Shown: positions 1 to 18,373 of the stretch, piece after piece
Numbering within the stretch: the stretch's first letter is position 1
Layout: every line of letters starts with the position of its first letter
Source of the DNA: Alcanivorax sp. 24
GTDB taxonomy: Bacteria; Pseudomonadota; Gammaproteobacteria; Pseudomonadales; Alcanivoracaceae
Assembly (NCBI RefSeq): GCF_004360225.1
Contig: NZ_SNUA01000002.1
Coordinates: 310,001-374,000, forward strand
Direction of reading: 5' to 3'
DNA length: 64,000 bases
Position numbers and translations under genes: made by a program
The notes under the pieces: model-generated
What the model saw: only the letters and a program-made list of their open reading frames with translations
What the model was told of the DNA's origin: nothing
Database searches by the model: none

Positions 1-615
1 CAAAGTATTGAATCCTTTACCTTTCATGACTACGTGACCTCGGAAGGTGTCGATTTTGCGCACCATCAGTTGGCGCCAGGATTTATTCATACCAACCCGC
101 AGCCTGGAGAAGAAGCCCTGGGTATCGGCATGGACGGGATCAAGATTCCTGACGTGGGCAAGGATGTATACTTCGGCCTTGCCAGCGTGGAAGGTACCAG
201 TGCGAACCAGCATCAGGCATGGTACGTAGGAGATCAGGATGGTTTTGTTTTGCCCACATCCTCCACGGATTATGCCGCCGTGGCGCTGCTGGCGTTGCCT
301 ACAACCTCCGTCAACTCACCTGAAATTCTCACCGGTGAGTTGACGCTGAACGTTAGCGGCACGTCATCACTGTCTGGCACCTTGACCAATGGCAGCGGTG
401 CCACCCAAAACAACCTGCTTATTCAAGCAACCGGAAATGATGCCTTCAGCGGTACCTCTACTTATTACGTAGGTACCGGATCGGCTCCGTCCTCCAACGG
501 TTCGGTGACCGGCCACTTCTTTGGAAATGGTAGCACAGGCAATAGTGCGCTGGCGGGTGTGGCCGAAGGAAACTCTGTCGACTACGTCGCCTCCTTCGGT
601 GGCGTCCAGAAATAA
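1..615 (+). CDS. Slam-dependent (type XI) secreted cargo protein, 5' truncated by window edge
   Basis: The frame is open from base 1 to TAA at 613-615, so the N-terminus lies outside the window; 204 codons are visible. The C-terminal half is Gly/Ser/Thr-rich with alternating beta-strand patterning and ends VTGHFFGNG...LAGVAEG...VASFGG, which matches the closing strands of the TbpB-type beta-barrel found in Slam substrates and hemophilins (family knowledge). The visible N-terminal part (HHQLAPGFIHTNP, MDGIKIPDVGKDVYFG) would be the ligand-binding handle domain. A Slam gene follows 109 bases later, the usual cargo-Slam order. The likely role is a secreted or surface-tethered heme or iron-ligand binding protein. 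Whether it carries a lipobox cannot be seen, and the ligand is inferred only from context. Confidence 0.7.
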   Translation, partial: QSIESFTFHDYVTSEGVDFAHHQLAPGFIHTNPQPGEEALGIGMDGIKIPDVGKDVYFGLASVEGTSANQHQAWYVGDQDGFVLPTSSTDYAAVALLALPTTSVNSPEILTGELTLNVSGTSSLSGTLTNGSGATQNNLLIQATGNDAFSGTSTYYVGTGSAPSSNGSVTGHFFGNGSTGNSALAGVAEGNSVDYVASFGGVQK

Positions 616-689
616 CAGCAGCACCATTTTTTCCGAAAAGCCATGACATTCAGCCATTCGGGGTTTGCTTTGATTAATGAAGCCTTTCG

Positions 690-709
690 AACCTGCCTTC
701 GGGCAGGTT
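690..709 (+). terminator. Hairpin between cargo gene and Slam gene (attenuator-like)
   Basis: AACCTGCC - TTCG - GGCAGGTT is a perfect 8-bp stem closed by a stable TTCG tetraloop. It is followed by the pyrimidine-rich CCTTTCGTCTT instead of a pure T run. Its place between the cargo stop (615) and the Slam start (725) suggests partial termination, giving more cargo than translocon mRNA. The bases just before it (AGCCTTTCG) recur just before the equivalent hairpin of the second module at 11832. Confidence 0.6.
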
Positions 710-724
710 CCTTTCGTCTTCTGA

Positions 725-2203
725 ATGGATATTTCCCCCATGACCGTTCCTGGCTCCCTTTTCGTACGCGGCCTGATTGTGCTGCTGCTGGTTTTTGTCC
801 GCTTGAATGCCGAAGCGCAGCAGGACACGGCGGACCGCCTGTGGCAAGGCTCCGAGCGTCAATGGCGGCAGCAAAAAGAAGAGGCCGAGCCGGCGCCTCT
901 GGAGCAGCAGGAACAAGGCCCGGAAGGGCAGGCTCCGGTTATCGATTTGCCGCCGGGATTGAAGTTACAGCAATTGCTGTTCGCCATTCTCAATGCCGTC
1001 AATCGCAGGGACTGGGACGCCGCCGAGCGCTGGCTGCGCCTGTACGCCAGTATTCCTCAACACGATCCGGCACTGTTCGATTTCGTCGAAGCCGGCCGGG
1101 CGGCCGACCAGGGTCGCTATCGCGAGGCCGTGGCGGGGTACAAAAAGGTGCTTGAGAGCAACCCTGGGTTTACCCGGGGACGGCTGGATCTGGCCCGCGC
1201 CTTGTATGCCGACAATCGGTTGCGGGACGCTGAAACGTCGTTCCGTGCGTTGCGGGATATGCCCTTGCCGGAGCAGGTTCTGGATCATATCGATGACTAT
1301 CTTGGCGCGCTGGCTCAGCGCCGCCGTCCCCGTCTGTCCTTATCCCTTTCGGCGGTCCGTGAAGACAATGTGAACCGCGCTTCCACGGTGGTGGATGCGT
1401 GCGCTCTGGTGTTCCACGGCGTATGCCTTGCCAACAGGCCCGGGAAGGAGATCAGCGCCTCCGGTACCTATTTCGAAGGCACCCTGAACAAACTCTGGTC
1501 GCTGCCCGGCAATCACTCGGTGCTGTTGCGCAGTATCAACTACGGCAATGAATACCGGCATGGTGACGATTACGACAACCTGGTTTCCACCACTTACCTG
1601 GGATATCAGTACGCCAACGTCAGGACCCGCTTTCAACTTCTGCCTTTATTCGAATATGACCGCGAAGGCGGCCGCGACATTTATCAGGCGTTTGGAGTGC
1701 GGGCGGTGCTGGCCCGGCAATGGCGACAACGGACCGAACTTGAGCTGAGTTACGAGCATAAGGAGCGCGACTTTTCCTCGGCGCTGGACAGCCTGGAAGG
1801 TGACTCGCGCCGTCTTTCCGTGTTCGCCAATCATGCCCTGCGCCGTGATCTGATGATCTATGGTGGCCTGATCATGCATGACAGCGACGCGCGCCTGGAT
1901 ATGTTCGCCTACCGCGAGCGTATCGCCCGTTTCGGGGTGTACAAGGCCGTCGCTGATCTGGCCACGGTGAATCTGTCATACAGCTATCGCAAAAAAGTGG
2001 CCAAAGGTCGCCACGCCGTTTTCGCGCGGCGGCAACGTGACCATGAAGGCAGTGTCTATCTCAACATCACTCTGCCGCGTCTGGCCTGGCACGGAGTTAC
2101 CCCGGCCCTGAGCTACGAATATCGCGATAACCGCAGCAGTATCGCCCATGTCTATCGCTACAAGAAAAGCCGCGTGACGTTCGGTTTGAACAAGATTTTC
2201 TGA
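725..2203 (+). CDS. Slam-family outer-membrane translocon (surface lipoprotein assembly modulator, DUF560)
   Basis: 492 aa. Residues about 1-31 are a signal peptide (hydrophobic core GLIVLLLVFV, AEA cleavage site). A Q/E-rich linker follows, then TPR-like helices at about 80-190 (RRDWDAAERWLRLY, YREAVAGYKKVLESNPGFTRGRLDLARALY). From about 200 to the terminal Phe there is an amphipathic beta-barrel with a DNVNRAS entry motif. This is the Slam/DUF560 architecture: periplasmic TPRs plus a 14-strand barrel that exports a partner protein (type XI secretion). The cargo is encoded directly upstream. An in-frame ATG at 740 has a slightly better upstream GGAT and could be the true start. A second paralogue lies at 11870-13384 with low sequence similarity, so each probably serves its own cargo. 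Confidence 0.88.
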   Translation: MDISPMTVPGSLFVRGLIVLLLVFVRLNAEAQQDTADRLWQGSERQWRQQKEEAEPAPLEQQEQGPEGQAPVIDLPPGLKLQQLLFAILNAVNRRDWDAAERWLRLYASIPQHDPALFDFVEAGRAADQGRYREAVAGYKKVLESNPGFTRGRLDLARALYADNRLRDAETSFRALRDMPLPEQVLDHIDDYLGALAQRRRPRLSLSLSAVREDNVNRASTVVDACALVFHGVCLANRPGKEISASGTYFEGTLNKLWSLPGNHSVLLRSINYGNEYRHGDDYDNLVSTTYLGYQYANVRTRFQLLPLFEYDREGGRDIYQAFGVRAVLARQWRQRTELELSYEHKERDFSSALDSLEGDSRRLSVFANHALRRDLMIYGGLIMHDSDARLDMFAYRERIARFGVYKAVADLATVNLSYSYRKKVAKGRHAVFARRQRDHEGSVYLNITLPRLAWHGVTPALSYEYRDNRSSIAHVYRYKKSRVTFGLNKIF

Positions 2204-2231
2204 ATTTTTTTACCTGATGGAGAAACCGCTT

Positions 2232-3203
2232 ATGCAACGTTTGTGCTTAATTCTGCTTCCACTACTTCTCAGTGCCTGTATGTCCACGGCACAAGTCGAA
2301 ACCGCACCGGAGCCATGGCGGCTCAAACTGATCGACAGCGCGCCCACGGACTTCGAAAAGGCCCGCCAGGCGATCCTCAGCATGGTGGGGGAGTACCGGG
2401 TCACGTTCGCGTTCGAGGAAACCGAGGCGCTCACTTCGGGCTACCAGCTCAAGCCCGCCAAACAAAGCGATGCCTATGAGATGGTGCTGCTGGCGGAAGA
2501 CAGTGATACCCGGATCATTCTGCAGCACATCCTGGTGCACCGTGGCAGCGGCTTCGTGATCAAACATTGGCGCCAGGACTGGCGCTATGAAGCGCCCCGG
2601 CGTTTGCGGTTCACCGCCGATCAGACCTGGCGCCTGCGCCCGGTTTCCGCCGAGAAGACCAAGGGAGCCTGGACGCAGTGTGTTTACGAAGTCAGCGATG
2701 CACCGCGCTATTGCGGTACCGGCAGGTGGGATTTCGCCGGCGAGTATCCTACCTGGACGTCGGATCAAGGCTACCGGCCCTTGCCGCGACGCGAGTACAC
2801 CAAACGTGATGATTACAACGCCTTGGCGATCATCAACAGCCACACCATCCTGCCCGATGGCTGGAATCACGGGCAGGACAACGTCAAGGTGGTCCGTGAA
2901 GGGGAAACGGTGGTGTCGCGTATCGCCCGCGAAAAGGGGCTGAACACCTACCAGCGCATCAGTGGCTACAACTTCCGTCCGGGCTATCAGTATTGGGATG
3001 ATACCCAGGATTATTGGCGCCGCATCCGGGCTGAATGGGACCGTCGCATCGCCGCTGGTGACGGCGTGCGTCTGGATTACCCGGTGGACGGCATGAAGAT
3101 GATCATGAAAATGTACTGGCAGTCCGAAAAAGCCCGCAAGGGCAAGCCCGTCACCGACCAGGAGATTCAGGATCTGTTTGATCCGTGGGTCAAGGCGCCC
3201 TGA
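2232..3203 (+). CDS. DUF6607 family lipoprotein
   Basis: 323 aa from ATG 2232, preceded by GGAGAAAC; an ATG at 2217 would add five residues. The N-terminus is a lipoprotein signal (LILLPLLLSAC, lipobox Cys near residue 17). The body carries blocks I associate with DUF6607: EYRVTFAFEET near the start, LQHILV...VIKHWRQDWRYE, GTWTQ-like GAWTQCVYEV, RPLPRREYTKRDDYN and NSHTILPDGWNHGQDN. The family has no established biochemical role. It starts 28 bases after the Slam stop, on the same strand, so it is probably the last gene of the first Slam operon. Its position inside an iron/heme island suggests an envelope role in the same uptake process, which is inference. Confidence 0.75.
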   Translation: MQRLCLILLPLLLSACMSTAQVETAPEPWRLKLIDSAPTDFEKARQAILSMVGEYRVTFAFEETEALTSGYQLKPAKQSDAYEMVLLAEDSDTRIILQHILVHRGSGFVIKHWRQDWRYEAPRRLRFTADQTWRLRPVSAEKTKGAWTQCVYEVSDAPRYCGTGRWDFAGEYPTWTSDQGYRPLPRREYTKRDDYNALAIINSHTILPDGWNHGQDNVKVVREGETVVSRIAREKGLNTYQRISGYNFRPGYQYWDDTQDYWRRIRAEWDRRIAAGDGVRLDYPVDGMKMIMKMYWQSEKARKGKPVTDQEIQDLFDPWVKAP

Positions 3204-3252
3204 GCGAGCGCCTCGTCATGCGGCAACGGTGGAGCTGTGCGCGATTTATTGC

Positions 3253-4254
3253 TCAGCCCGCCGATATCCGCAATTGCCTTGGTGTAACCCCATACTTGCG
3301 TTTAATCGCGGAGGAAAAGTTGGCCGTGTTGCTGTACCCGGCGATGGTGGCGGCCTGGCTGATACTGACGCCGTCCCGTTGAATGGCGAGCACCGCCCGG
3401 CTCAAGCGGGCATCTCGAATATAACCACCGACGTTGGTGCCAAAGGCGCGGTGAAAGTTACGCTGCAGGGTGCTGACGCTCATACCGAATTGTTTGGCGA
3501 TATCAGCGATTGTCAGATCTTCCGGGTAATGAGTATCCAGGTAATTCCGGATCCGCTCGAGCCGTTCGAATTCGCGCTCGGAAATATCCATGTTGGATGC
3601 GGATGGCAAAGTCACCGGATCTTCGATCAGGCTGTTCAACCCTTCCATGATTAAGGTGATGCAGCGGTTTTCCAGATAGAGTCTCTCCAATGGGGTTTGT
3701 GGCGGGACGCCGTCGATGATCTGGCGGGCGACGGTCAGGGCGTGAGGGGAGGGGGTCCATAGTTTGGTTGCCAGGTGTGTGCTGATGAAGCGGTGTACCG
3801 CCGGCCAGGCCCGGTCCGGATTGTCCAGATTGTAATATAGCCATTCCGGTGTGAACGTGAGGCTGACGGCTTTCTCCCTTCGTCGTGGACTGCTGCGCTT
3901 GAGGAATCGTGCAGCCGTGGTCAGCGCCACCAGGGAAGCCTGATTCCGGTTGTCCGCTTGCTCTCCAATAGGGAGGCGCTGCTGGTCGAACTGAATATCC
4001 GGTGCACCTTCGATCGCCACCGCGAGTTTGATACCGGGATAGACAACACTCTCCGTGACATTGCGGAACAGCTCTTCGATATCCACGGTATGCAGAACCA
4101 GCCCTTTCCGTAATGGTATGACGTGAAATCGGCCAAGAAGCTTGGGGTGGCTCTGCTCATGGCTCGAGTTTTTCAGTCGATTGGAATGGCAAAGGGGCCA
4201 TGACAGGCACGAAATATCATGCTGGCTGATTGTGCGGGGTACCTTCTCCGTCAT
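3253..4254 (-). CDS. AraC-family transcriptional regulator, PchR-like
   Basis: 333 aa. The start chosen is ATG 4254, because AGGGAGGGA sits at proper distance; an ATG at 4260 is too close to it and an upstream ATG at 4302 lacks a site. The C-terminal ~100 residues hold two helix-turn-helix motifs of AraC/XylS type (LTIADIAKQFGMSVSTLQRNFHRAFG and SISQAATIAGYSNTANFSSAIKRKYGVTPRQLR). The N-terminal region resembles the ligand domain of PchR/YbtA-type regulators, which sense ferric siderophores in the cytoplasm and activate a divergent receptor gene. The receptor gene starts about 315 bases away on the opposite strand, the classical arrangement. The siderophore recognised is unknown. Confidence 0.82.
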   Translation of the reverse strand: MTEKVPRTISQHDISCLSWPLCHSNRLKNSSHEQSHPKLLGRFHVIPLRKGLVLHTVDIEELFRNVTESVVYPGIKLAVAIEGAPDIQFDQQRLPIGEQADNRNQASLVALTTAARFLKRSSPRRREKAVSLTFTPEWLYYNLDNPDRAWPAVHRFISTHLATKLWTPSPHALTVARQIIDGVPPQTPLERLYLENRCITLIMEGLNSLIEDPVTLPSASNMDISEREFERLERIRNYLDTHYPEDLTIADIAKQFGMSVSTLQRNFHRAFGTNVGGYIRDARLSRAVLAIQRDGVSISQAATIAGYSNTANFSSAIKRKYGVTPRQLRISAG

Positions 4255-4302
4255 CCTCATTCCCTCCCTTATTTTGCTGGCGGTTCCTGGATAGTGGTCC
4301 AA

Positions 4303-4568
4303 GCCAGCCGTGCGCTCCCAGGCATCAGGTCAATTTGCAGTGCGCTCTGATTTTTTACTGATTACATAGGCGCCACGGACTTCTTGCGGTTAAAGAAGCC
4401 GGAGTCCTGAATATTGACCGTTTTGAAAAACAAAAAGATTTTTAATGAAAACTATTCTCATTTGAGGATGCTAGCCTAGCTCTCCGAATCCATCAAGAGT
4501 TTGCCTTGTTCAATCCGTGCGCGATGGCGGGCGACTATCGCGGTTATTGTATATAAGAGTTGCACTAT
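4303..4568. promoter_or_regulatory. Divergent control region between regulator and TonB receptor
   Basis: These 266 bases lie between the PchR-like gene and the receptor gene and must hold both promoters. A strong Fur-box match is at 4444-4462 (separate entry). A short inverted repeat CTTCTT/AAGAAG lies near 4380-4398 and could be an AraC-type operator; that is only a suggestion. No clear -35/-10 pair could be assigned. Confidence 0.55.
4444..4462 (+). promoter_or_regulatory. Fur box upstream of TonB-dependent receptor
   Basis: AATGAAAACTATTCTCATT is a 19-base, near-palindromic match to the gammaproteobacterial Fur consensus of inverted TGAnAATnATTnTCA halves. It lies about 107 bases upstream of the receptor ATG. 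A sister site with 17 of 19 identical bases precedes the second cargo gene at 10895. It predicts iron repression of the receptor. Confidence 0.8.
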
Positions 4569-7073
4569 ATGTCTCAGTTGGTGAAGTTCAGGATGGCCGC
4601 CAGGCCGTTCCTGCCTGTCTGTTTTTCCTGGTTGGGATTGTTGGGGCCGCTTGTCTCCACGGCCGCGATGGCGGATGAGCCCGAGGCGGCCACCGCCGCG
4701 GAACAACAGGAGCAGGCTCGGGGTCGGGGCCCGGAAGGCTCAACGGTGGAACCGGGGGATGTTCATGTGCTCCAGGGGGTCACCGTTCAAGGCAGTTACT
4801 CCGGCGCCCCCACCGTCCAGGAGGAAGCCGCCACCAGCTACACCGTGCGCCGTTCCAGCAACGCCACCAAGCTGGACTTGTCGATCAAGGAAACGCCGCA
4901 AAGTCTGACCATTATCACTGAAAAGCAGATTCAGGATCAGAATCTGACCCAGGTGGCCGACGTGCTCAAGGTCACCCCCGGTATCTCGGTGCAGGAATAC
5001 GGGGTGCCCGGGGCGGGGCGGGCGAGTTACTACGCCCGCGGTTACGAGATCGATAATTTCCAGATCGACGGCATGCCCACGGCGGCCAGTATGTTCGGTG
5101 GCGCCGATTTGATGGGCAGCATGGACAGCGCCATCTACGAGCGGGTGGAGATCATTCGTGGCTCCACCGGCCTGACCACCGGCACCGGCGACCCTTCCGC
5201 CAGCATCAACTTCGTGCGCAAGCGCCCCCATTGTGATCCCAAGCGGCGCCTGAACCTGAGTTACGGCACCTGGAGCCGGGCCCGCACCGAACTGGATGTG
5301 AACCAGCCGTTGCTGGAGGACTGCCGCTTGCGGGGCCGTTTTGTCGGCGTTTACTCCGAGGGCGAGCACTGGATGGACCGGGTCGAGGACGAGACCAGCG
5401 TGCTGTACGGCATGCTGGAAGCGGACCTGACCTGGAACACCACGCTCTGGGCGGGCTTCCACCGGTTCGAGAAATGGGTGGACGACGCCACCCCCCACGG
5501 CACCGACCTGACCAACAACAGCGGCGGCATCTATGATCTGGTCGATGCCAAGGGCCGTGCCTTCAACGCCGCCACCCAGTGGTCCTACGCCTCCCAGGAG
5601 GTGGAGCAGTACTTCGCCGGCATTGGCCATTACTTCAATGACGACTGGCGGCTCAATGTCAATTACCAATACACCGAGGCCACGCCCGACCGGGTTTACG
5701 GCATGGTCGGCGCCGACTATTACGACACCGTCAATCAACTGGCCAGCTTTACCTACGGGCGTATCCAGAACGACAACGAAGTGCACAACGTGGATGTGAC
5801 CCTGACCGGCAAATTCCGGTTCCTGGGTCGCGATGCCCAGATTGCCACCGGTTTCAGCGGTTTCCGCTCCGAGATTCTCGAACCTGCCCGGGAAACCCAG
5901 GAGGGCAACCCGATCAGCCTTGATAACTGGAATGATGGCGATATTCCTTTACCCAAAGTGCCCGGCACCGATTACTACGTGGTCGATGGCCATGGCATTC
6001 TCAACAAAACCAAGGAAGAGCAGTACGGCGCTTTCTTCAGCACCAAGTTCAACCCCAGCGAACGGCTCACCGCCATCCTTGGTGTCCGCTATCACAAATA
6101 TGACATGGGCATTCGCCGTTACTACTACAACGGCTGCAGCGGTGCCGTTGGCCTTTATTACGAGTGTGACGGGGTCGGCGAGCAGTATTCCCACGAGCAC
6201 GTGGATTACCCGGAACGGTATATCCCCTACGCGGGGCTGGTGTTCGCGCTGACGCCGCGCACCTCGATGTACGCCAGCTATACCGGCATCCACAAGATTC
6301 AGCAGGAATCCCGGGGCATCTCCGCCAGGGTGATCGAGGAGGGCGGTGGCGGCATCCCGGTGATCGCGGTGGCGCCCAAGAAGGGCAATACCCTGGAATT
6401 GGGGGTAAAAAGCGCGCTCAACGACGATCGCCTCAATCTGCAGGCGGCGGTGTTTCGCATGGAAGAGAAGGACGTGGCCTATAGCCTGCCAAGCTGGAAG
6501 GCCACCGTCACCGAAATCGTCAATGGCGAGGAGAAAACCTACTACCTGGTCTGCAATAACCCCTACAACCCCTATTCGGATTGCCAGCCGGCGGGGGTCA
6601 TCGACGGCCTCACCACCATGGGGGCGGAGCTGTCCATCGCCGGCCAGATCAACGACCGCTGGATGATCAACGCCGGCTACACCTATTTGCACCTGGATTC
6701 CCCGGGCTATTCCGAGGAGTTGGGCTATGACCCCTATGAAACCCTCGACCGCCAGGGTTTCAACAGCCCCAAACACAGCTTCAGCCTGTTCACCAGCTAC
6801 GCGCTGCACCGGGATTTCACCGTCGGCGGCGGCGTGAGCTGGAAGAGCCGGACAAAAAAATACGGCGGCGGCACCTGGACCGGCGAGGTGGCCGAGTACG
6901 TCCAGGGCTCCTATGCGGTGGTGGACCTGATGGCGCGCTACCGGCTCAACCGCGTCATGACCCTGGGGCTGAACGTGGGCAACCTGTTCGACGAGACCTA
7001 CCTGGCCAATGACCGCGCCAGCTACTACGGCGCCCCACGAAGTATCACCGCGTCGCTCAGCGCCACCTTTTAG
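4569..7073 (+). CDS. TonB-dependent siderophore receptor
   Basis: 834 aa from ATG 4569 (AAGAG upstream; an in-frame TTG lies at 4560). A signal peptide ends near AAMADEPE. The plug domain (about 85-230) shows KLDLSIKETPQSLTIITEKQIQDQ, VADVLKVTPGISV, ARGYEIDNFQIDGMP and the plug end YERVEIIRGSTGLTTGTGDPSASINFVRKRP, all typical of FhuE/FpvA/FoxA-type receptors. The 22-strand barrel ends NVGNLFDETYLANDR...ASLSATF with the C-terminal Phe. No N-terminal secretin (STN) signalling domain is visible, so it is not a transducer coupled to a sigma/anti-sigma pair, in line with control by the adjacent PchR-like regulator and Fur. The ligand is unknown; a hydroxamate or other xenosiderophore is plausible. 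Confidence 0.92.
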   Translation: MSQLVKFRMAARPFLPVCFSWLGLLGPLVSTAAMADEPEAATAAEQQEQARGRGPEGSTVEPGDVHVLQGVTVQGSYSGAPTVQEEAATSYTVRRSSNATKLDLSIKETPQSLTIITEKQIQDQNLTQVADVLKVTPGISVQEYGVPGAGRASYYARGYEIDNFQIDGMPTAASMFGGADLMGSMDSAIYERVEIIRGSTGLTTGTGDPSASINFVRKRPHCDPKRRLNLSYGTWSRARTELDVNQPLLEDCRLRGRFVGVYSEGEHWMDRVEDETSVLYGMLEADLTWNTTLWAGFHRFEKWVDDATPHGTDLTNNSGGIYDLVDAKGRAFNAATQWSYASQEVEQYFAGIGHYFNDDWRLNVNYQYTEATPDRVYGMVGADYYDTVNQLASFTYGRIQNDNEVHNVDVTLTGKFRFLGRDAQIATGFSGFRSEILEPARETQEGNPISLDNWNDGDIPLPKVPGTDYYVVDGHGILNKTKEEQYGAFFSTKFNPSERLTAILGVRYHKYDMGIRRYYYNGCSGAVGLYYECDGVGEQYSHEHVDYPERYIPYAGLVFALTPRTSMYASYTGIHKIQQESRGISARVIEEGGGGIPVIAVAPKKGNTLELGVKSALNDDRLNLQAAVFRMEEKDVAYSLPSWKATVTEIVNGEEKTYYLVCNNPYNPYSDCQPAGVIDGLTTMGAELSIAGQINDRWMINAGYTYLHLDSPGYSEELGYDPYETLDRQGFNSPKHSFSLFTSYALHRDFTVGGGVSWKSRTKKYGGGTWTGEVAEYVQGSYAVVDLMARYRLNRVMTLGLNVGNLFDETYLANDRASYYGAPRSITASLSATF

Positions 7074-7090
7074 CCGCCAAGGAACCGATC

Positions 7091-9052: not shown

Positions 9053-9094
9053 GGCTCTGGCGTTTCGATGATTGGCAAACCAAAGGAAACCGCG

Positions 9095-10753: not shown

Positions 10754-10786
10754 CTTGGAGGGATGGGTCTCCCCGGAGAGGCCGGA

Positions 10787-10820
10787 GCGGGTGTCGGTGA
10801 GAATCGGCACCCGCTTTTTT
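10787..10820 (+). terminator. Intrinsic terminator after receptor/lipoprotein operon
   Basis: GCGGGTG (10787-10793) pairs with CACCCGC (10808-10814) and is followed directly by six T residues (10815-10820). It separates the receptor-lipoprotein transcription unit from the second cargo-Slam-ABC unit, which has its own Fur box. Confidence 0.85.
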
Positions 10821-10894
10821 CTAGGGGCGGGAGGCTCCGTTCGGGTTCCCCAACAGGACGAAAATTGATTGATACGCAAACAAATTTGACCGTT

Positions 10895-10913
10895 TATGAA
10901 AACAATTCTCATT
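10895..10913 (+). promoter_or_regulatory. Fur box upstream of second Slam cargo gene
   Basis: TATGAAAACAATTCTCATT differs at two positions from the Fur site before the receptor gene. It lies 105 bases upstream of the cargo ATG, with TTGACC at 10886-10891 as a possible -35 element just before it, so Fur binding would cover the promoter. It predicts iron-repressed expression of the whole downstream cluster. Confidence 0.78.
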
Positions 10914-11017
10914 TGCGTTCTGTATCTTGAGAAGTGGCTCTTGCGCTCCGTATTCCGGACCGGGGAAGAGCGGCAACGGGCTGACACACTTCCATTCTCG
11001 ATCAAGAGGTAAGGACA

Positions 11018-11815
11018 ATGCGTAAATGGACTCTTGGCGCGGCCATCGCCGCCGCCCTCTCCACCTCCACGGTGGCCATGGCCGATGTCGGCTTTATCGA
11101 TGGCGATACCGTCACTTTCAGCAGCCCTGATTACGTGGGCACGTTCACCTACAATGGCGTGGAGTACGGTGTTGGTGGCTCGCCCATAGTAAACAGCTTC
11201 GATGTGGACGACCTCGACCCGGGATTTACCCGGATCGCCAGCCAGCAGACCATCGATGGCAATACCGTCAACGTGGCCTACCGCTTCTACAAGCAGCAGT
11301 ACTCCACCGTGGTGGGCAATACCACCAACGCGGCCGGGCATAACCGCCAGTTCGTTCGCGATATCGTCGGTGATCCCACCACGTCGTTACCCAATAACAC
11401 CACTTACAATTACAGCGGCGTGGTGTTCAACCATATCGATCAGTACTCCACCGGCGGGCAGACCTACGATGCCGATGGCACCCTGGTCTACACCATTACC
11501 GTGGACGGTTCCGGTAGCGCCACCGGATCCGGTTCCTTCACCGGTGTAAGTGGCAACCGGCCGGTGACGGGCCTGTTTTCCGTATCGGGTACGCTTGAAA
11601 GCACGCCGGTGACCACCCAGGCCGATGGTCGTCTCGGTATCACTGGAGGGGACGTTACTCTTGACTATACCGATGCCTCGGGTACCACCCAGTACACGGA
11701 TTCCAGTTATGACCTGGGGGTGTATGGCCCCAACGCCGAAGAAGTCGCTGGTGGCATCTACGGCGGGCAACTGGAAGCCATGGTGAGCGGCTATGGCTTC
11801 GCCGGTGTACGCTAA
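11018..11815 (+). CDS. Hemophilin-like secreted cargo of the type XI (Slam) system
   Basis: 265 aa; AAGGA sits 5 bases before the ATG. Residues 1-22 are a signal peptide (MRKWTLGAAIAAALSTSTVAMA). There is no Cys anywhere, so this is a soluble secreted protein and not a surface lipoprotein. The N-terminal half would be the ligand-binding domain. From about 165 a repetitive beta-barrel leads to YDLGVYGPNAEEVAGGIYGG...GFAGVR. The YGPNAEExxG...(F/Y)xGxR ending is the hallmark of TbpB/hemophilin barrels recognised by Slam. The Slam gene follows immediately. By analogy with HphA of Acinetobacter the ligand may be heme, but conserved heme ligands cannot be named from sequence alone. Confidence 0.8.
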   Translation: MRKWTLGAAIAAALSTSTVAMADVGFIDGDTVTFSSPDYVGTFTYNGVEYGVGGSPIVNSFDVDDLDPGFTRIASQQTIDGNTVNVAYRFYKQQYSTVVGNTTNAAGHNRQFVRDIVGDPTTSLPNNTTYNYSGVVFNHIDQYSTGGQTYDADGTLVYTITVDGSGSATGSGSFTGVSGNRPVTGLFSVSGTLESTPVTTQADGRLGITGGDVTLDYTDASGTTQYTDSSYDLGVYGPNAEEVAGGIYGGQLEAMVSGYGFAGVR

Positions 11816-11843
11816 CTGATGGGTTTGGTTAGCCTTTCGGGAC

Positions 11844-11876
11844 CGGGCATCGGCCGGCGCGCGCGGCCCATGCCCG
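11844..11876 (+). terminator. Hairpin at the cargo-Slam junction of the second module
   Basis: CGGGCAT (11844-11850) pairs with ATGCCCG (11870-11876), and inner GGCC/GGCC can extend the stem; T-rich ATCTTTCTTTTC follows. The right arm contains the preferred Slam ATG at 11870, so folding may both terminate transcription and hide the start codon. AGCCTTTCG precedes it, as at the hairpin of the first module. Confidence 0.55.
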
Positions 11877-13384
11877 ATCTTTCTTTTCGCCACCAGTGCC
11901 GCCGCCTTTGGGGGGCGGCACTGGTGGTTTTGTTGCTCCTGGCATGCCGCGCCGGGCTGGCGCAATCAGCGCCCTCGTCGCCGTCGGGTGGCCGGCCATT
12001 GGAAGACTCCCGCTTGCTGTCCCCCGACCTGGAAGACCGGCAACGGTTCCGGGAACCGGATACGGCGCCCGGACGCGCCCGCCCCGGCGCCGAGGATCAG
12101 GGCGAGCGGCCGCCTGAGCTCACCGACGAGCAGGTCCGGCGCCATCCGCGCATCGCCGAGATTATCATCAATACCGCGCTCCAGCGCCGTGACTGGAACA
12201 CCCTGGCGCGGGTGCTGCCGCTGTACCGCCAGGCCCCCGGCCACGATCCTCTGCTGGTGCACTACGTCAGCGGCGCCCTGCTGCGCCAGCAAGGCCGGCA
12301 TGGTCAGGCCATCGCCCATTATCGGGCGATGCTGGAGGCGGACCCGGCGCTCGACTATGTGCGCTTCGACTTGGCCGCCATGCTGTTCGAGAACCGCCAG
12401 TACCGTCAGGCGCGCGGGCAGTTCCTGCGCATTCGGGATACGCCCCGGGTGGCGGAAAACTTCCGCGCGCTGGCGGAGGAATTCCTCGGGCGGATTCAAC
12501 AACGGCAGCGCCTCAATACGCGGGTTCGTGTCGGCCTGGTGCACAATGACAACGTCAACCAGGCCAGCGACGAGCGCTATCTGACGATTGGCGGCTGGGT
12601 GTTCGTCAAGAACCGGGAGAACATGCCGCGAGACTCCCTGGGTACGGATTATTCGTTGTTGTTCGATCAGGAACGCAACCTGGGCGGGCACCACTTTCTG
12701 AGCTGGGACCTGAAACTGGACGGCCTGCACTATTTCAGCGAGCAGGCGTTCAACGAGCGCGCCGCCACCCTGAACTTGCAGTACAAATGGCAGGATTCCC
12801 GCTCCTGGCTGTACGCCGGGCCGATGCTGGACTGGCGCTGGCTGGACGGTGAGCGCTACACCGAGGCCCTGGGCGCCAGCGCCGGTTACGGGCGCTGGTT
12901 GTCGCCGCGCTGGCAGGCGACGCTGCATGGCCGCTGGTTCGACAAGGACTATGTGGACGATGGCCTGGCCGACTTCGGCGGCGATGTTTTCCATGTCACG
13001 CCCGGCCTGCTGCGGGTGCTGCCGGGCAACGCCGTGCTGTTCGCCGGGCTGGTCTGGCAGCGGGAAAAACTCGGCATCGAGACCGAATCCTTTACCCAGC
13101 GCGGCGCCAATCTGGGCATCAAGAAACAGTGGCGCAATGGCCTGGATACCCTGGCCTATGTGCAGTGGGGCAAACGGGAGTACCGGGGCGAGAACGCCCT
13201 GTTCGCCAAACAGCGCCGGGACCGGCGCGCCAATGTGGTGCTTGATATCGGCCATTCCCGGCTGCGCTTCTGGGGCATCGAGCCCTCGCTCGGTTTTCGC
13301 ATGGAAAAGGTGGACAGCAACCTGCCCGAAATTTATTCGCGCACCATTCGTCAGTATCTGTTGACGTTCGAGAAACGTCTTTGA
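11870..13384 (+). CDS. Slam-family outer-membrane translocon, second copy
   Basis: 504 aa from ATG 11870, which gives a normal signal peptide with charged start RHQCRRLWG and core AALVVLLLLA. An ATG at 11819 would add 17 residues. A lipobox-like LLAC is present but GLAQ-S cleavage is more likely for a barrel protein. TPR-like helices span about 85-190 (RRDWNTLARVLPLYRQAPGHDPLL, HGQAIAHYRAMLEADPALDYVRFDLAAMLFENRQYRQARGQF). The barrel begins at VRVGLVHNDNVNQAS, matching VREDNVNRAS of the first copy, and ends QYLLTFEKRL. It exports the hemophilin-like product of the gene just upstream (inference from pairing). The FecB-like gene starts 53 bases downstream. Confidence 0.88.
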   Translation: MPDLSFRHQCRRLWGAALVVLLLLACRAGLAQSAPSSPSGGRPLEDSRLLSPDLEDRQRFREPDTAPGRARPGAEDQGERPPELTDEQVRRHPRIAEIIINTALQRRDWNTLARVLPLYRQAPGHDPLLVHYVSGALLRQQGRHGQAIAHYRAMLEADPALDYVRFDLAAMLFENRQYRQARGQFLRIRDTPRVAENFRALAEEFLGRIQQRQRLNTRVRVGLVHNDNVNQASDERYLTIGGWVFVKNRENMPRDSLGTDYSLLFDQERNLGGHHFLSWDLKLDGLHYFSEQAFNERAATLNLQYKWQDSRSWLYAGPMLDWRWLDGERYTEALGASAGYGRWLSPRWQATLHGRWFDKDYVDDGLADFGGDVFHVTPGLLRVLPGNAVLFAGLVWQREKLGIETESFTQRGANLGIKKQWRNGLDTLAYVQWGKREYRGENALFAKQRRDRRANVVLDIGHSRLRFWGIEPSLGFRMEKVDSNLPEIYSRTIRQYLLTFEKRL

Positions 13385-13437
13385 AAGAAACCACGCTTGC
13401 AACACACCACGATGGAAAAGCACAGAAGGGGACCACC

Positions 13438-14616
13438 ATGAAGACGCCGGCCATCCGGGCCCGTTCCGCCCGGCCAGACTCCGACCTCGGCATACTGCTA
13501 TTGTTCTGCCTGCTGGCTTGCCTGGCGACGCCGGGCCGGGCCGCCGACACCCATCGCATCACCGATGTGGCCGGGCGTACCGTCGAGGTGCCGGTGAAGG
13601 TGGAGCGCTTGCTGCTTGGCGAGGGCCGTTACCTGCCCACCCTGGCCATGTTCGACCACGACGACCCGGTCAAGCGGGTAGTGGGCATGTTCGGCGAGTT
13701 CGAGCGGCTCGACCCGGCCAGTTACGGCGCCTTCGCCGAACGCTTCCCCGCCTTGCGTGATGTGCCCCGGGTGGGGCGCTCCAACGAGGCCAGCTTCAGC
13801 ATCGAGCAGGCCATCGCGCTGACACCCCAGGTGGCGTTGTTTGGTCTCGAGGGGCACGGCCCCACGCCGCATTCCACCGAGGTGCTGGACCGCCTCGCCG
13901 CCGCCGGCATCGCGGTGGTGTTCATCGATTTCCGTCAGCATCCGCTGACCAACACCACCCGCAGCATGACGGTGCTCGGTGACTTGCTGGGCCAGCCGGA
14001 CGTCGCCACCGGCTTCAACCGCTATTACCGCGAGCAATTGCGCAGGGTGACCGAAAGGGTGGCGGGTATCGAGGCACGGCCGACGGTGTTTCTGGAAGAC
14101 CGGGTGGGCCTGATCCAGGAGTGTTGCCACACCATCGCCCGGGGGCTGTTCGCCGATTACATCGACGCCGCCGGCGGTCTGAATCTGGCCGCCGACAAGG
14201 TGCCCGGGCAAACCGGCATGATCAGTCTGGAATACCTGCTGGAGGCGCAGCCGCGGGTGTACATCGGCACCGCCATCGGCGCCGTGGCGAGCGCTGACAA
14301 GCAGCCCGAGCGCATCGTGCTTGGCGTGGGCGCCGACCAGGCGGTGGCGCGGGCCTCCCTGAAACACGTTTTGCGGCGGCCCGGCTTCGCCGGATTGGAG
14401 GCGGTGCGGCAAGGGCGGGCCCACGCCATCTGGCACCACTTCTACAATTCGCCGTTCAACGTGGTGGCGGTGCAGGCCATCGCCAAGTGGCTGCACCCGG
14501 AGGTGTTCGCCGATCTGAACCCGCGGGACACCCTGGCCACCTTGTACCAGCGGTTCCAGCCGCTGCCGCTGGACGGTGAATACTGGGTCAGCCTGGATCA
14601 GCGACCGGATGAATGA
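13438..14616 (+). CDS. Periplasmic iron-siderophore/heme-binding protein (FecB/BtuF-type)
   Basis: 392 aa. The ATG at 13438 has AAGGGGA before it; a TTG at 13381 overlapping the Slam stop is unlikely. The signal peptide has core ILLLFCLLACLATPGRA. The mature protein starts THRITDVAGRTVEVPVKVERLLLG, the usual opening of cluster A-III binding proteins. Two lobes follow with the periplasmic binding protein blocks EQAIALTPQVALFG, LDRLAAAGIAVVFIDF and YLLEAQPRVYIGT. An unusual vicinal cysteine pair sits in LIQECCHT. It would hand the ferric ligand to the permease encoded next (8-base overlap). Ferric siderophore is more likely than B12, given Fur control and the neighbours. Confidence 0.88.
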   Translation: MKTPAIRARSARPDSDLGILLLFCLLACLATPGRAADTHRITDVAGRTVEVPVKVERLLLGEGRYLPTLAMFDHDDPVKRVVGMFGEFERLDPASYGAFAERFPALRDVPRVGRSNEASFSIEQAIALTPQVALFGLEGHGPTPHSTEVLDRLAAAGIAVVFIDFRQHPLTNTTRSMTVLGDLLGQPDVATGFNRYYREQLRRVTERVAGIEARPTVFLEDRVGLIQECCHTIARGLFADYIDAAGGLNLAADKVPGQTGMISLEYLLEAQPRVYIGTAIGAVASADKQPERIVLGVGADQAVARASLKHVLRRPGFAGLEAVRQGRAHAIWHHFYNSPFNVVAVQAIAKWLHPEVFADLNPRDTLATLYQRFQPLPLDGEYWVSLDQRPDE

Positions 14617-15649
14617 GTCCCTGGCCGCCGGCTACCGACGGCGGGTGCGGCGCCGCGTTCTGGCGTTGTCGGGTTTGCTGCTGGTGTTGCTGATCTGTTT
14701 GCTGGCGGACGCCGCCACCGGCCCTTCCAGCCTCGGGCTGGGGCAGGTTTTCCAGGCGCTGTGGGCGCCGCACAGCCTGTCCCGTGGCCAGGCGGTGATC
14801 CTCTGGCAGGTGCGGCTGCCCTACGCCGTCATCGGATTGGTGGTGGGCGCCGCCCTGGGGCTGGCCGGCGCCGAGATGCAGACCGCGCTCAATAACCCGC
14901 TGGCCAGCCCGTATACCCTGGGGGTGTCCGCCGCCGCCACCCTGGGCGCCTCCCTGGTGATCGTGCTTGATCTTCACTGGCCACCGCTGTCGCGCACCTG
15001 GCTGATTCCGATCGGCGCCTTCCTGTGCGCGGCGCTTTCGGTGACGCTGATCCTGCTGCTGTTGCGCCGCGTGGGCAACGGCGTGGAAGGCATCGTGCTG
15101 TTCGGCATCGCCATGGTGTTCGCCCTGGAGGCGATGGTTGCCATGCTGCAATTCATCGCCGACAGCGACACCCTGCAGCAGATCGTGTTCTGGACCTTCG
15201 GCAGCCTGGGGCGGGCCACCTGGGACAAGGTCGCCATCGTGGCGGCGGTGCTGGCCCTGTGCCTGCCGTTCTCGTTGCGCGGCGCCTGGGCGATGACCGC
15301 CCTGCGCGGCGGCGAGGAGCAGGCCCGCAGTGCCGGCATCGCCGTGGATCGGCTGCGGGTGCGGGTGCTGCTGCGGGTCAGCCTGCTGTCGGCGGTGGCG
15401 GTGGCGTTCGTCGGCACCATCGGCTTCGTCGGATTGGTGGCGCCGCACATCGCGCGCATCACCCTGGGCGAGGACCACCGGTTCTATTTGCCGGGCAGTG
15501 CCCTGGCCGGGGCGCTGATGCTGTCGCTGGCGTCGATCGCCAGCAAGAGCCTGATTCCCGGTCTGATCATTCCGGTGGGCATCGTCACCGCGCTGGTGGG
15601 GGTGCCGTTGTTCATGGCCCTGGTGCTGGGCCAGAGGCGGTGCCGATGA
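14609..15649 (+). CDS. FecCD-family iron-complex ABC transporter permease
   Basis: 346 aa. ATG 14609 overlaps the stop of the binding-protein gene, implying translational coupling; an in-frame GTG at 14576 would overlap by 41 bases. It has about nine to ten hydrophobic segments. Diagnostic family blocks are LWQVRLPYAVIGLVVGAALGLAGAEMQTALNNPLASPYTLGVS near the N-terminus, the cytoplasmic coupling segment ALRGGEEQARSAGIAVDRLR and FVGTIGFVGLVAPHIARITLGEDHRFYLPGSALAGALML. It forms the inner-membrane channel, presumably as a homodimer, since only one permease gene is present. Confidence 0.93.
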   Translation: MNESLAAGYRRRVRRRVLALSGLLLVLLICLLADAATGPSSLGLGQVFQALWAPHSLSRGQAVILWQVRLPYAVIGLVVGAALGLAGAEMQTALNNPLASPYTLGVSAAATLGASLVIVLDLHWPPLSRTWLIPIGAFLCAALSVTLILLLLRRVGNGVEGIVLFGIAMVFALEAMVAMLQFIADSDTLQQIVFWTFGSLGRATWDKVAIVAAVLALCLPFSLRGAWAMTALRGGEEQARSAGIAVDRLRVRVLLRVSLLSAVAVAFVGTIGFVGLVAPHIARITLGEDHRFYLPGSALAGALMLSLASIASKSLIPGLIIPVGIVTALVGVPLFMALVLGQRRCR

Positions 15650-16458
15650 CGGCGTTGCTGGAAATCCACGACCTGCGCGTGGCCTATGGCCGGCGGCGTG
15701 TGTTGCACGGGCTCAACCCACCACCGCTTGAAGAGGGGCAGGTGGTGGCCCTGGTGGGGGGCAATGGCACCGGAAAATCGACCTTGCTCAAGGCGCTGGC
15801 CGGGTTGCAGCCGGGTACCGGCCGCGTGGTTCTGGACGGGGAGGACATCCAGCCTCTCAACGCCACCCGCCGCGCCGGGTGCCTGGCCTACGTGCCTCAG
15901 GCGTTGCCCCAGGGCAGCGCCTTGCTGGCCTATGAGGCGGTGCTCAGCGGCAGCCGGGCGCTGCCGTCACCACTGAACCGCGAACAACTGGAGCGGCGTC
16001 TCGCCGGGCTGTTCGAGCGCCTGGAATTGACGGGCCTGGGGCTGCGTCCGCTGAGCGAACTGTCCGGTGGCCAGCGGCAGATGATCGGGCTGGTCCAGGC
16101 GCTGGTGCGCCAGCCCCGGCTGTTGCTACTGGATGAACCCACCAGCGCGCTGGATCTGCGTTGGCAGCTCAAGGTGCTGGAAACGGTGCGTGACCATTGC
16201 CGCGAGCGTCACAGCGGGGCGCTGATCGCTCTGCACGATTTGAACCTGGCGCTGCGCTTCTGTGACCGCATGATCGTGCTGCACGACGGTGCGGTACTGG
16301 CCGCCGGAGCGCCGGATAGCGCCTTGAACGCCGACATTCTGCGCCGTGCCTATGGGGTGGAAGGGCGGGTGGAACGCTGTTCGCTGGGGTTCAAACTGGC
16401 GCTGGCGGACCGCGCCCTGCCCATCAATGAATTGCTTCGTGAACCGGAGAACCCTTAA
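15646..16458 (+). CDS. FecE-type ABC transporter ATP-binding protein
   Basis: 270 aa. The start is ATG 15646, with ATGA overlap of the permease stop. Walker A is GGNGTGKST (near residue 40), the Q-loop is in YVPQALPQ, the signature is LSGGQRQMIGLVQALV, Walker B is LLLLDEPTSALD and the switch His is in ALHDLNLALRFCDR. It powers the FecBCD-like importer. The stop overlaps the next gene's start in TAATG, continuing the coupled unit. Confidence 0.94.
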   Translation: MTALLEIHDLRVAYGRRRVLHGLNPPPLEEGQVVALVGGNGTGKSTLLKALAGLQPGTGRVVLDGEDIQPLNATRRAGCLAYVPQALPQGSALLAYEAVLSGSRALPSPLNREQLERRLAGLFERLELTGLGLRPLSELSGGQRQMIGLVQALVRQPRLLLLDEPTSALDLRWQLKVLETVRDHCRERHSGALIALHDLNLALRFCDRMIVLHDGAVLAAGAPDSALNADILRRAYGVEGRVERCSLGFKLALADRALPINELLREPENP

Positions 16459-16748
16459 TGATCGAACTCGAGGGCCAGGTCGAAACGACCCGGGCGCCGT
16501 TGTATCTGACCAAGCTGTGCAAGCACTTCCAGCATAAAGTCGAGGTGGAGTTCGACGAGCACCAGGCGCGGGTGGATTTTCCGTTCGGTGAATGCCGGTT
16601 GCACGCCGACCAGCGGCGATTGCGGATTCATGGCCGGGTCATGGATCAGGCCGCCGCCGAACGGATGCGTTATGTGATTGACGACCATCTGCGCCGCTTC
16701 GCCCGCCAGGAACAGCCGCGAATACAGTGGCGGGAGACGGATCGATGA
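16458..16748 (+). CDS. DUF2218 family protein
   Basis: 96 aa. ATG 16458 shares its A with the TAA of the ATPase gene. The layout TRAPLYLTKLCKHFQHKVEVEFDEHQARVDFPFGECRL...MRYVIDDHLRRFARQE matches DUF2218, a small cytoplasmic family often found beside siderophore uptake genes. A conserved Cys/His-rich surface (LCKHFQHK, GECRL) could bind metal or a ligand, but no activity has been established. Its coupling with an iron ABC importer supports a role in handling imported iron or its ligand, which is inference. Confidence 0.82.
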   Translation: MIELEGQVETTRAPLYLTKLCKHFQHKVEVEFDEHQARVDFPFGECRLHADQRRLRIHGRVMDQAAAERMRYVIDDHLRRFARQEQPRIQWRETDR

Positions 16749-18373
16749 TGATTTCGGACGGGGTTTTGATATTGGCTCTGCTGGTGTTCGTCGGCGCCTG
16801 GTGGATACCGGTGTTTCCGGCACGCGCTCCGGTGTTGCGCCTGGCCGCGCTGGTGGCCTTGGCGGCGGGAGTGTTTGGTGTTCTCGATGATCGCTGGCAG
16901 GCCACCGTCGGCGCTGTCGCCGCTGGATTGTTCCTGCTGGCCTTGCCGCTGGAACGGCGCCGCCGGCGTTCTTCCCGGGCGTTGCCGTGGGTGTCGGGCA
17001 CGCTGTTCGCGCTGTTGGCGGTGATGGCCGTCGGTCTGCTTTATCTGTTTCCGCTGAATGATCTGCCGGCGCCGACCGGTCCCCACCCGGTGGGCGTGCG
17101 CACCTTCGAACTCACGGACCGGTCGCGCCAGGACGCTTTTGGTGTCGGTGAGGAGGGACCGCGTCGCCTGCTGATACGCGTCTGGTATCCGGCGAGCGCC
17201 ACGTCTCGAGGGGAGCGTCAACGCTACTTTTCCCACGCCGAGGCGCGCACCACCGCACAGGGACTTGGCCGCCTGATCGGCGCGCCGTTTTTATTGAGCC
17301 CGCTTAAACACGTGCGAACCCACTCCCGGGAAGGGGCGCCGCTGGCCGCCACGGCGCACCGGCCGCCGGTGGTGATCTACAGTCACGGCTATATGTCATT
17401 CCTGGGCCAGAACACCGCCTTGATGGAAGAACTGGCGAGCCATGGTTACCTGGTGTACGCGATCCAGCACAGTGAAGACGCGTCCGCCACGGTGTTTGCG
17501 AATGGGGAAGTGGTGCCGATGGCGGCGGAGCTGGCCCGGCGTTCCCATGACGATAAGCGGCCGGCGGGAATGAGCGCGGCGCTCACCGGCGAAACACTGG
17601 ATCAGCGCCTGCAAGGGCATCTCGACTACTGGCAAGCCTCGAGAGAGCAGGGCGCCCGCATCGCCACACGCAGCCCCCGGGTCTGGATCGAGGACCGGAA
17701 ATTCGTGCTCGATCGCTTGGCGGCCGGGGAGGTGCCCGATGCCGTGGCGGACGTGGTGGCGGCCGGTGATGTCACCCGCACCGGACAGATCGGCATGTCC
17801 TTCGGCGGCTCGACAACGGGGGGGCTGTGCCTGACCGACTCGCGTTGCGCGGCCGGGGTCAACCTGGACGGGCTCAATTATCACCCCGGTGCTTTTGATG
17901 CGGAGATGCCGGTTCCCTTTTTGATGCTGCACTCGGATCAGGAGCGATTCTACCGGCTCAAGGCGGGCAAAATCCCGGCGCGGCCTCGCAGCTTCAACGA
18001 GTTTTCCTATCAGCGTTTCGAGCAGGCCGGCGATTCGGAGCAGGTGCACCGGATACAGTTCAACGGCGCCATGCACCTGGGTTTCTCCGACTTCACCTGG
18101 TTCATGCACCGCCCGCTGCGGGACCGTTTTCTTGGCACCACGCCGGCCAATGTCATGATCGGCGGCCAGAACGCCTTGGTGCTGGGCTTCTTCGATCATT
18201 ATCTGAAAGGCGCCGATAATGGCTTTCCCCAGGCTCAGATAGAGAAGTACCCCCAGTGGCTGACGCCGCTGGACAATGGCTATGTCCGCCAATGGTGGCT
18301 GGCAAAATCAGAGGCGCAACGGGCGAGGATCAGGGAACGCATCGTATCGAGTAAGGCCACTGGCATTCGCTGA
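16745..18373 (+). CDS. Membrane-anchored alpha/beta hydrolase (PAF-acetylhydrolase/dienelactone-hydrolase type)
   Basis: 542 aa. ATG 16745 overlaps the DUF2218 stop as ATGA and GGGAG lies upstream. Residues 1-110 hold about four hydrophobic segments with an RRRRRSSR loop between the third and fourth. The remainder is an alpha/beta hydrolase with oxyanion-region block VVIYSHGYMSFLGQN, nucleophile elbow GMSFGG (Ser near 351) and a late His in GAMHLGFSDF (near 442), the order seen in the PAF-acetylhydrolase II family. It ends the iron operon. An ester-cleaving role on a siderophore or on lipid is plausible but not shown. The membrane segments place the catalytic domain either in the periplasm or the cytoplasm; the topology was not resolved. 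Confidence 0.78.
   Translation: MMISDGVLILALLVFVGAWWIPVFPARAPVLRLAALVALAAGVFGVLDDRWQATVGAVAAGLFLLALPLERRRRRSSRALPWVSGTLFALLAVMAVGLLYLFPLNDLPAPTGPHPVGVRTFELTDRSRQDAFGVGEEGPRRLLIRVWYPASATSRGERQRYFSHAEARTTAQGLGRLIGAPFLLSPLKHVRTHSREGAPLAATAHRPPVVIYSHGYMSFLGQNTALMEELASHGYLVYAIQHSEDASATVFANGEVVPMAAELARRSHDDKRPAGMSAALTGETLDQRLQGHLDYWQASREQGARIATRSPRVWIEDRKFVLDRLAAGEVPDAVADVVAAGDVTRTGQIGMSFGGSTTGGLCLTDSRCAAGVNLDGLNYHPGAFDAEMPVPFLMLHSDQERFYRLKAGKIPARPRSFNEFSYQRFEQAGDSEQVHRIQFNGAMHLGFSDFTWFMHRPLRDRFLGTTPANVMIGGQNALVLGFFDHYLKGADNGFPQAQIEKYPQWLTPLDNGYVRQWWLAKSEAQRARIRERIVSSKATGIR

Follow-up and report, generated by a model that had tools for sequence, protein, structure and literature searches.

Among type XI secretion systems (T11SS), the HphA–HsmA and HrpC–HrpB pairs have been described as hemophore systems (PMC8560813, PMC8406197), and a survey of T11SS cargo counts 54 lipoproteins and 285 soluble proteins in a group resembling factor-H-binding protein (fHbp) and places heme and iron uptake near cluster 1 Slams (PMC12282271). 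Meningococcal fHbp itself reportedly interacts with xenosiderophores in vitro, and enterobactin recruitment has been postulated for it and for its homologue in the gonococcus (PMC5607398, citing Veggi 2012); apart from this report, the T11SS cargo ligands met in the available parts of this literature are heme, metals and host proteins. The Bacteroides surface lipoprotein XusB is a seven-bladed propeller that covers the receptor XusA and is able to bind xenosiderophores (PMC13142918), and the siderophore site proposed for YiuA comprises five residues—R64, R165, R223, H331 and Y334, a basic triad plus His/Tyr (PMC5683015). Here we analyze a 64,000-nucleotide stretch of Alcanivorax sp. 24 (contig NZ_SNUA01000002.1, here C2, positions 310001-374000 of the forward strand; hereafter the window), in which a run of genes that we call module C (window 3253-18373) places an fHbp-type cargo gene and its Slam gene between a siderophore-type receptor and a ferric-chelate importer. 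We favor, at about even confidence, the reading that module C is a siderophore uptake system controlled by iron starvation and equipped with a type XI (Slam) export arm.

Two near-identical Fur-like boxes in module C

Module C, the last of three consecutive modules (A, B and C), consists of an AraC-family regulator, a TonB-dependent receptor, two repeat lipoproteins (ELW1 and ELW2), the cargo gene (cargo C), Slam C, the importer, a DUF2218 gene and a hydrolase gene, all on the forward (+) strand except the regulator. An earlier note made from the sequence alone (the sequence-only reading) had pointed to a Fur box at the receptor; we found a Fur-like box there (4445..4463), together with a second one that it had overlooked, which precedes cargo C (10896..10914) and agrees with the receptor box at 18 of 19 bases. 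Both sites follow the pattern ATGAAAAC[T/A]ATTCTCATTT; derived from the two sites themselves, this pattern has two matches in the window at up to two mismatches, against 0.00 expected, and 22 matches at 19 places genome-wide, with none for a reversed-pattern control. One of the genomic matches (C2:304309) falls in module B, with the sigma-like gene on one side and the receptor on the other.

ELW2 and the second box are separated by a terminator-like hairpin with six T after it (10787..10820; −28.9 kcal/mol for the 51 bases of 10780-10830, z −4.2, 0 of 200 shuffles as good). A pattern-based terminator scan performed near chance level and did not have this hairpin among its rows, and a promoter scan of the window was likewise at chance level. 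From cargo C to the hydrolase, successive genes are separated by 3, 53, −41, −4, −1 and −4 bases, values that depend on the start codons we chose. Because two near-identical boxes occur with a strong terminator between them, an iron-controlled operon appears to start at cargo C and to run into the importer. We infer that the genes form two transcription units, one made up of receptor, ELW1 and ELW2 and the other reaching from cargo C to the hydrolase.

A predicted fHbp fold for cargo C and the clade of its Slam

Cargo C (11018..11815) encodes a 265-aa protein with an apparent export signal, no cysteine and no lipobox. It exceeds the FHBP_C cut-off (38.7 vs. 28.1 bits, E 1.9e-9), this being the sole domain listed at E up to 1, and falls under the cut-off of NCBIfam slam_lipo (NF041636; 21 vs. 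80 bits). Alignment with 12 fHbp-type cargo sequences gave 15 invariant columns, including the family residues YxxxYS and GPxxEE; those near GPxxEE are invariant partly by selection, since a motif around these residues had served to pick the 26 fHbp-type candidates from which the rows were taken, after removal of near-copies and long repeat proteins. Structure prediction, which the sequence-only reading had suggested as a check, yielded an AlphaFold2 model (pLDDT 76.4, pTM 0.77) whose best fold match is fHbp (5t5f_A; Z 20.0, rmsd 2.9, 191 residues aligned, 22% identity in the structural alignment), followed at lower scores by hemophilins (Z 14-15) and TbpB (Z 12-13). Cargo C is predicted on this basis to have the fHbp fold, in a model that may lean toward that family because its alignment consisted of fHbp-type sequences.

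Slam C (11819..13384; 521 aa), which begins three bases after cargo C, is over the cut-offs for both the SlipAM barrel (159.9 vs. 22 bits, E 1.3e-46) and the N-terminal TPR_Slam domain (107.9 vs. 35.2 bits, E 4.1e-31), and cargo C is very probably exported in a Slam-dependent way. In a tree of 33 Slams, Slam C forms a clade with four Slams that adjoin fHbp-type proteins (L021, L022, L027 and L028; support 100/100). Two of these loci, L021 and L022, are Acinetobacter plasmids of 17 and 34 kb on which the fHbp-type Slam and cargo lie near BrnT/BrnA toxin-antitoxin genes and insertion sequences, and the former encodes a 1267-aa fHbp-domain protein.

A siderophore-type receptor and a YiuA-like importer

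The receptor of module C, RecC (4560..7073), described in the sequence-only reading as Fur-boxed, is a TonB-dependent siderophore receptor of FauA/FhuE/FpvA-like type, with FhuE (6e4v, E 7e-76), FpvA and FauA as its closest solved structures. It passes the TIGR01783 siderophore-receptor cut-off by about 2 bits (225.7 vs. 223.5) and lies far under the equivalog cut-offs for FauA (362.7 of 900) and FhuE (326.2 of 666). Its extra loops (76 residues in six insertions) lend weak support, since four of 12 other receptors carry 47-89 such residues. Divergent from RecC on the − strand is the regulator (3253..4302; HTH_18 E 9.7e-20), which had been called PchR-like; its AraC-family membership stands, and the PchR likeness is not supported, with only DNA-binding domains over a cut-off.

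Downstream of Slam C, the FecBCD-type importer noted in the sequence-only reading is present (13438-16458), comprising a YiuA-like ferric-chelate binding protein (13438..14616; longest open reading frame (ORF) from 13381; 6b2x E 6.5e-93), a FecCD-type permease (14576..15649, the longest ORF; PF01032 E 2e-78) and an ATP-binding cassette (ABC) ATPase (15646..16458; PF00005 E 1.6e-27, obtained on the longer ORF 15025-16458). The DUF2218 gene (16458..16748; PF09981 E 4.5e-29), of a kind that recurs beside this importer type, and the hydrolase gene that ends the run (16727..18373, with an ATG at 16745; PF03403 E 4.2e-14) are likewise where they had been placed, the latter being PAF-acetylhydrolase-like. 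We take PDB entry 6b2x to be YiuA, in agreement with the residue numbering in the YiuA paper. All five proposed YiuA site residues are identical in the window's binding protein (R83, R185, R241, H352 and Y355 of the 411-aa ORF); among 20 related binding proteins, arginine occurs at the first three of these columns in 20, 16 and 8, histidine at the fourth in 20 and tyrosine at the fifth in 17.

An alternative is that cargo C acts as a hemophilin-like hemophore, with heme or a chelate resembling it as the substrate of module C. Two hemophilin-type modules adjoin module C, the cargo C model also matches hemophilins, and the importer ATPase scores best on a heme ATPase model, though under its cut-off (179.9 vs. 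261 bits), as do three of five receptors beside related importers on the TonB-hemin model, again below cut-off, a result that makes this alternative slightly likelier. However, cargo C has no HphA_N or HphA_C match and Slam C falls outside the hemophilin clade, which makes cargo C unlikely to be a hemophilin; RecC reaches 89 bits on the TonB-hemin model against a cut-off of 317, and the binding protein is YiuA-like. In addition, a separate importer upstream has an ATPase that passes the heme model, so the window importer is unlikely to serve modules A and B as their heme importer. Taken as a whole, we regard the heme alternative as improbable.

Repeat lipoproteins between receptor and cargo

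The sequence-only reading had reported two repeat lipoproteins, and both ELW1 (7091..9052) and ELW2 (9068..10753) indeed carry a lipobox, although only ELW1 passes the cut-off for the ELWxxDGT repeat (TIGR04534; 76.3 bits for ELW1 and 35.9 for ELW2, cut-off 65). The two are 27% identical and have no significant match in Pfam, and ELW1 has no convincing match among PDB sequences. In modules A and B the corresponding position between receptor and cargo is held by lipoproteins of PKD type, all with a lipobox, and a poly-Gly stretch follows the lipobox Cys in PKD_A, PKD_B and ELW2. Given the parallel layout of the three modules, the repeat lipoprotein is a possible partner.

One could assign the siderophore-capturing role to ELW1 and ELW2 as receptor partners in the manner of XusB, with cargo C as an accessory that contacts either them or a foreign protein loaded with a siderophore. 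The lipoboxes and the poly-Gly of ELW2 are in line with this, as is the nature of XusB, itself a propeller lipoprotein that covers its receptor. Among the structural matches listed for the ELW1 model, those that we recognized are mostly to proteins with propeller domains. This model is poor, however (pLDDT 48.1), and for that reason we dropped any fold claim for ELW1; a beta-propeller is possible, and both the likeness to XusB and surface exposure are putative. XusB chains are absent among the listed structural matches of this low-confidence model, which excludes nothing. We consider this assignment distinctly unlikely.

Proposed route of siderophore uptake

Under the favored reading, in which module C is a siderophore uptake system with a Slam export arm, iron limitation would release two units, receptor-ELW1-ELW2 and cargo C-Slam C-importer-DUF2218-hydrolase. 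Cargo C, with its export signal, would be a soluble protein of fHbp fold that passes the outer membrane via Slam C and then binds a ferric siderophore or docks on the receptor while carrying one. It would then pass the siderophore to the receptor, with the repeat lipoproteins perhaps acting as surface partners, and the TonB machinery, followed by the YiuA-type binding protein and the FecCD/ATPase components, would move the chelate inward. The gene families, their layout, the Fur-like boxes and the fold of cargo C are supported by sequence or model; the transcription units, iron control, Slam-dependent export, ligand and hand-over are what we infer.

Cargo C probably has a role in this siderophore system, while direct binding of a siderophore by cargo C seems to us slightly short of evenly likely. 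More tentative still is the broader proposal of a soluble fHbp-fold protein that leaves the cell through a Slam and captures siderophores outside it, with a receptor and importer of its own. Such a protein would be a siderophore counterpart of hemophores and would point to siderophore handling as an old function of the fHbp fold, with the reported enterobactin binding by meningococcal fHbp as a remnant. The sequence-only reading had inferred a secreted carrier that feeds the receptor; we favor such a carrier for module C in view of the boxes, the gene packing, the YiuA-site residues and the siderophore-type receptor. No match to IucA/IucC was found in the genome, a result that fits the use of foreign siderophores and is no proof of it, because siderophore synthesis genes of the nonribosomal peptide synthetase type were not searched.

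Neighborhood surveys and the weighing of module C

We compared module C with 30 other Slam loci—13 from the class survey (all others there), four from congeners, two from the order, one from a genome-contig collection and 10 of 56 plasmid records—in stretches of 3-20.5 kb each. A FecCD or YiuA-like gene was found in none of these 30 stretches, and among the 17 Slams outside the hemophilin clade a TonB-receptor match was found at one (L090). Relatives of the binding protein occur in 27 of 194 order genomes, own genome included, and in 20 stretches taken from 32 matches outside the own genome, the related importers are accompanied by FecCD in 16 and DUF2218 in nine. Receptors were scanned in five importer stretches; two (L071 and L073) are best on siderophore-receptor models, the latter being FauA-like, as RecC is. 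The neighborhood search that the sequence-only reading had proposed, for Slam genes beside fecBCD, thus returned this locus and no second case among the 30 Slam and 20 importer stretches. From the importer survey, the cassette is common and its receptor exchangeable, with the Slam pair an addition seen once.

Searches for further copies gave a similar picture. Cargo C has no plasmid match at E ≤ 1 and no phage match at E ≤ 0.01; Slam C queries in 46 family, 369 class and 145 order genomes recovered no second copy of module C, and their 56 plasmid records include none above 60% identity. ELW1 (E ≤ 1e-10) has, in 194 order genomes, its own match plus two remote ones. No second module C was found in the genomes, plasmids and phages searched, which are a part of known genomes.

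Several observations weigh against the favored reading. Measured by the textbook Fur consensus instead of the self-derived pattern, both boxes agree at 13 of 19 positions, a score reached four times in the window on one strand where 1.25 were expected. Cargo C is acidic (26 D+E vs. 10 K+R), the analysis showed no ligand pocket, and siderophore binding by the protein is putative. At E ≤ 1e-5, cargo C lacks relatives among the 368 other genomes of the class and is thus confined to one genome there; the genome-contig collection gave one remote Slam C locus, with no siderophore gene recognized among its ORFs. Related importers evidently work without a Slam, with no Slam, cargo or ELW reference match in any of the 20 stretches, and three of their five scanned receptors (L063, L065 and L069) are best on TonB-hemin, under its cut-off.

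Finally, the four other Slams in the clade of Slam C have no iron-uptake genes among the neighbors that were checked, so that cargo C and Slam C may be a surface-protein pair inserted under a borrowed promoter. In that case a stand-alone fHbp-type pair, for a surface or secreted protein that may serve adhesion or some other role, would have been inserted downstream of the importer promoter and ahead of the genes it drives, and would be iron-regulated only by position; the Slam-free importer relatives are consistent with this, as is an Erwinia sp. E602 plasmid (L097:8068-10290) that carries a "Slam-dependent surface lipoprotein" and a Slam, and whose annotation shows no TonB gene within 9 kb of them. 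Yet the order of receptor, lipoprotein, cargo and Slam recurs in all three modules, and cargo C has its own Fur-like box nearly identical to that of the receptor, with the pair spaced in operon-like fashion. We judge such an insertion rather unlikely.

Modules A and B and genomic context

The 4.76 Mb genome holds three SlipAM (Slam) matches (E ≤ 0.001; C2:301587, 311334 and 322524), all within 22 kb. Module A lies wholly before the window, in an upstream stretch (L004), and consists of an ECF-type sigma factor, FecR, a TonB receptor, a PKD-repeat lipoprotein, cargo and Slam A; module B, which extends from L004 to window 3203, has the same gene kinds followed by a DUF6607 gene, its sigma and FecR-like genes being called from similarity to their module A counterparts without a Pfam run. 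The order of receptor, large repeat lipoprotein(s), cargo and Slam is common to modules A, B and C. The window opens with the 3' part of cargo B (1..615; ORF start at L004:17728, likelier ATG at L004:17815), followed by Slam B (725..2203; 492 aa, SlipAM E 1.4e-38) and directly by the DUF6607 protein, which carries a lipobox and ends the module (2217..3203; E 3.2e-68). The sequence-only reading had thus been right to see two different cargo–Slam pairs in the window, but there are three modules, the first of them lying before it, and of cargo B the window holds only the 3' part. Similarly, its picture of two export modules joined to one siderophore system holds for the module C pair, while the module B pair forms a separate hemophilin-type unit.

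Cargo A is over the cut-offs for both HphA_N (66.8 vs. 22 bits) and HphA_C (61.4 vs. 31 bits), and cargo B has a weak HphA_C match (24 bits, cut-off 31) and no HphA_N match. The receptors of modules A and B are over the TonB-hemin cut-off (343.5 and 357 vs. 316.85 bits), and Slams A and B group with 13 others in one 15-member clade (support 100/100). A hemophilin-type cargo adjoins 12 of these 13 other Slams (none in L102), and a TonB receptor is found in 11 of the 13 stretches, L023 starting at a contig end and L026 showing none. On these matches we class both modules as heme systems of hemophilin type, module B less surely so; since each has sigma/FecR-like genes and a heme-type receptor of its own, they are not part of the siderophore unit. 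Each has an ECF sigma/FecR-like pair (L004:440-2069 and L004:10687-12239), and the signaling (STN) matches of their receptors are below cut-off (25.7 and 20.3 vs. 28.4 bits); cell-surface signaling via these pairs is possible. Their PKD-repeat lipoproteins (L004:4984-7782 and L004:15108-17693) are possible unrecognized partners of hemophilin systems. A PKD-type lipoprotein also lies beside the cargo in five of the 13 other hemophilin-clade loci (L024, L025, L026, L098 and L101), two of which are Vibrio replicons.

Upstream of module A, an ExbB gene truncated at the stretch end is accompanied by genes for TonB and for an importer made up of a binding protein, FecCD and an ATPase, and then by an Mn/Fe-type ABC importer (L096:6-7458, corresponding to C2:284006-291458). 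The ATPase is just over the heme-importer model cut-off (263.6 vs. 261 bits), and the accompanying binding protein and permease have no heme-specific match over a cut-off. Counting these importers, the metal-uptake run spans about 44 kb in total. G+C content is 55-58% in module B and the regulator (window 1-4500) vs. 68% in the importer genes (window 13501-16500), a contrast that may reflect different origins of neighboring modules. No RNA families or tRNAs were found in the window, and the 18 ORFs scanned between 24158 and 63533 look for the most part like ordinary genes of metabolism or housekeeping (among them PurT- and PurL-like, tRNA m1G methyltransferase, tyrosine recombinase and CoA-transferase), with three having no Pfam match at E ≤ 1e-8.

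Comparison with known systems

We found no paper on Slam together with a siderophore receptor, in a literature search whose coverage excluded most subscription journals and preprints. The claim that a Slam-exported siderophore binder had not been described stands in that none was found there, and is partly preceded by the fHbp–xenosiderophore report (PMC5607398). If the favored reading is true, a Slam pair transcribed with a siderophore importer would widen the T11SS substrate range, give the fHbp fold a testable nutritional role and offer a natural case in which to examine the reported fHbp–xenosiderophore interaction.

The module C binding protein resembles that of the Yersinia YiuA importer across the whole proposed site; unlike module C, the available passages of the YiuA paper show no Slam or cargo, and there the YiuA substrate is itself unproven (PMC5683015). 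With XusA–XusB, module C shares, as a functional analogy only, an outer-membrane siderophore receptor assisted by a surface lipoprotein, the latter being a feature of XusB; XusB differs in being a propeller lipoprotein, and the word "Slam" is absent from the main text of that paper as available (PMC13142918). Cargo C has the Lipoprotein-C barrel of the fHbp-like group in the T11SS cargo survey, many members of which are soluble, but module C is linked to siderophore import, and "siderophore" does not occur in the survey's main text, so far as it was available (PMC12282271). Meningococcal fHbp shares with cargo C the predicted fold and the Slam-cargo family, whereas cargo C has no lipobox, is 22% identical to fHbp in the structural alignment and belongs to a gene run that holds a full operon for siderophore uptake. 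Like HphA/HsmA and HrpC/HrpB, module C combines a soluble beta-barrel cargo, an adjacent Slam and a TonB receptor for iron acquisition; unlike them, it has a cargo with an fHbp-type domain, a Slam of another clade, a siderophore-type receptor and a ferric-chelate importer in the gene run. What is new here is the linkage, seen in one genome, of an fHbp-type cargo–Slam pair to siderophore import.

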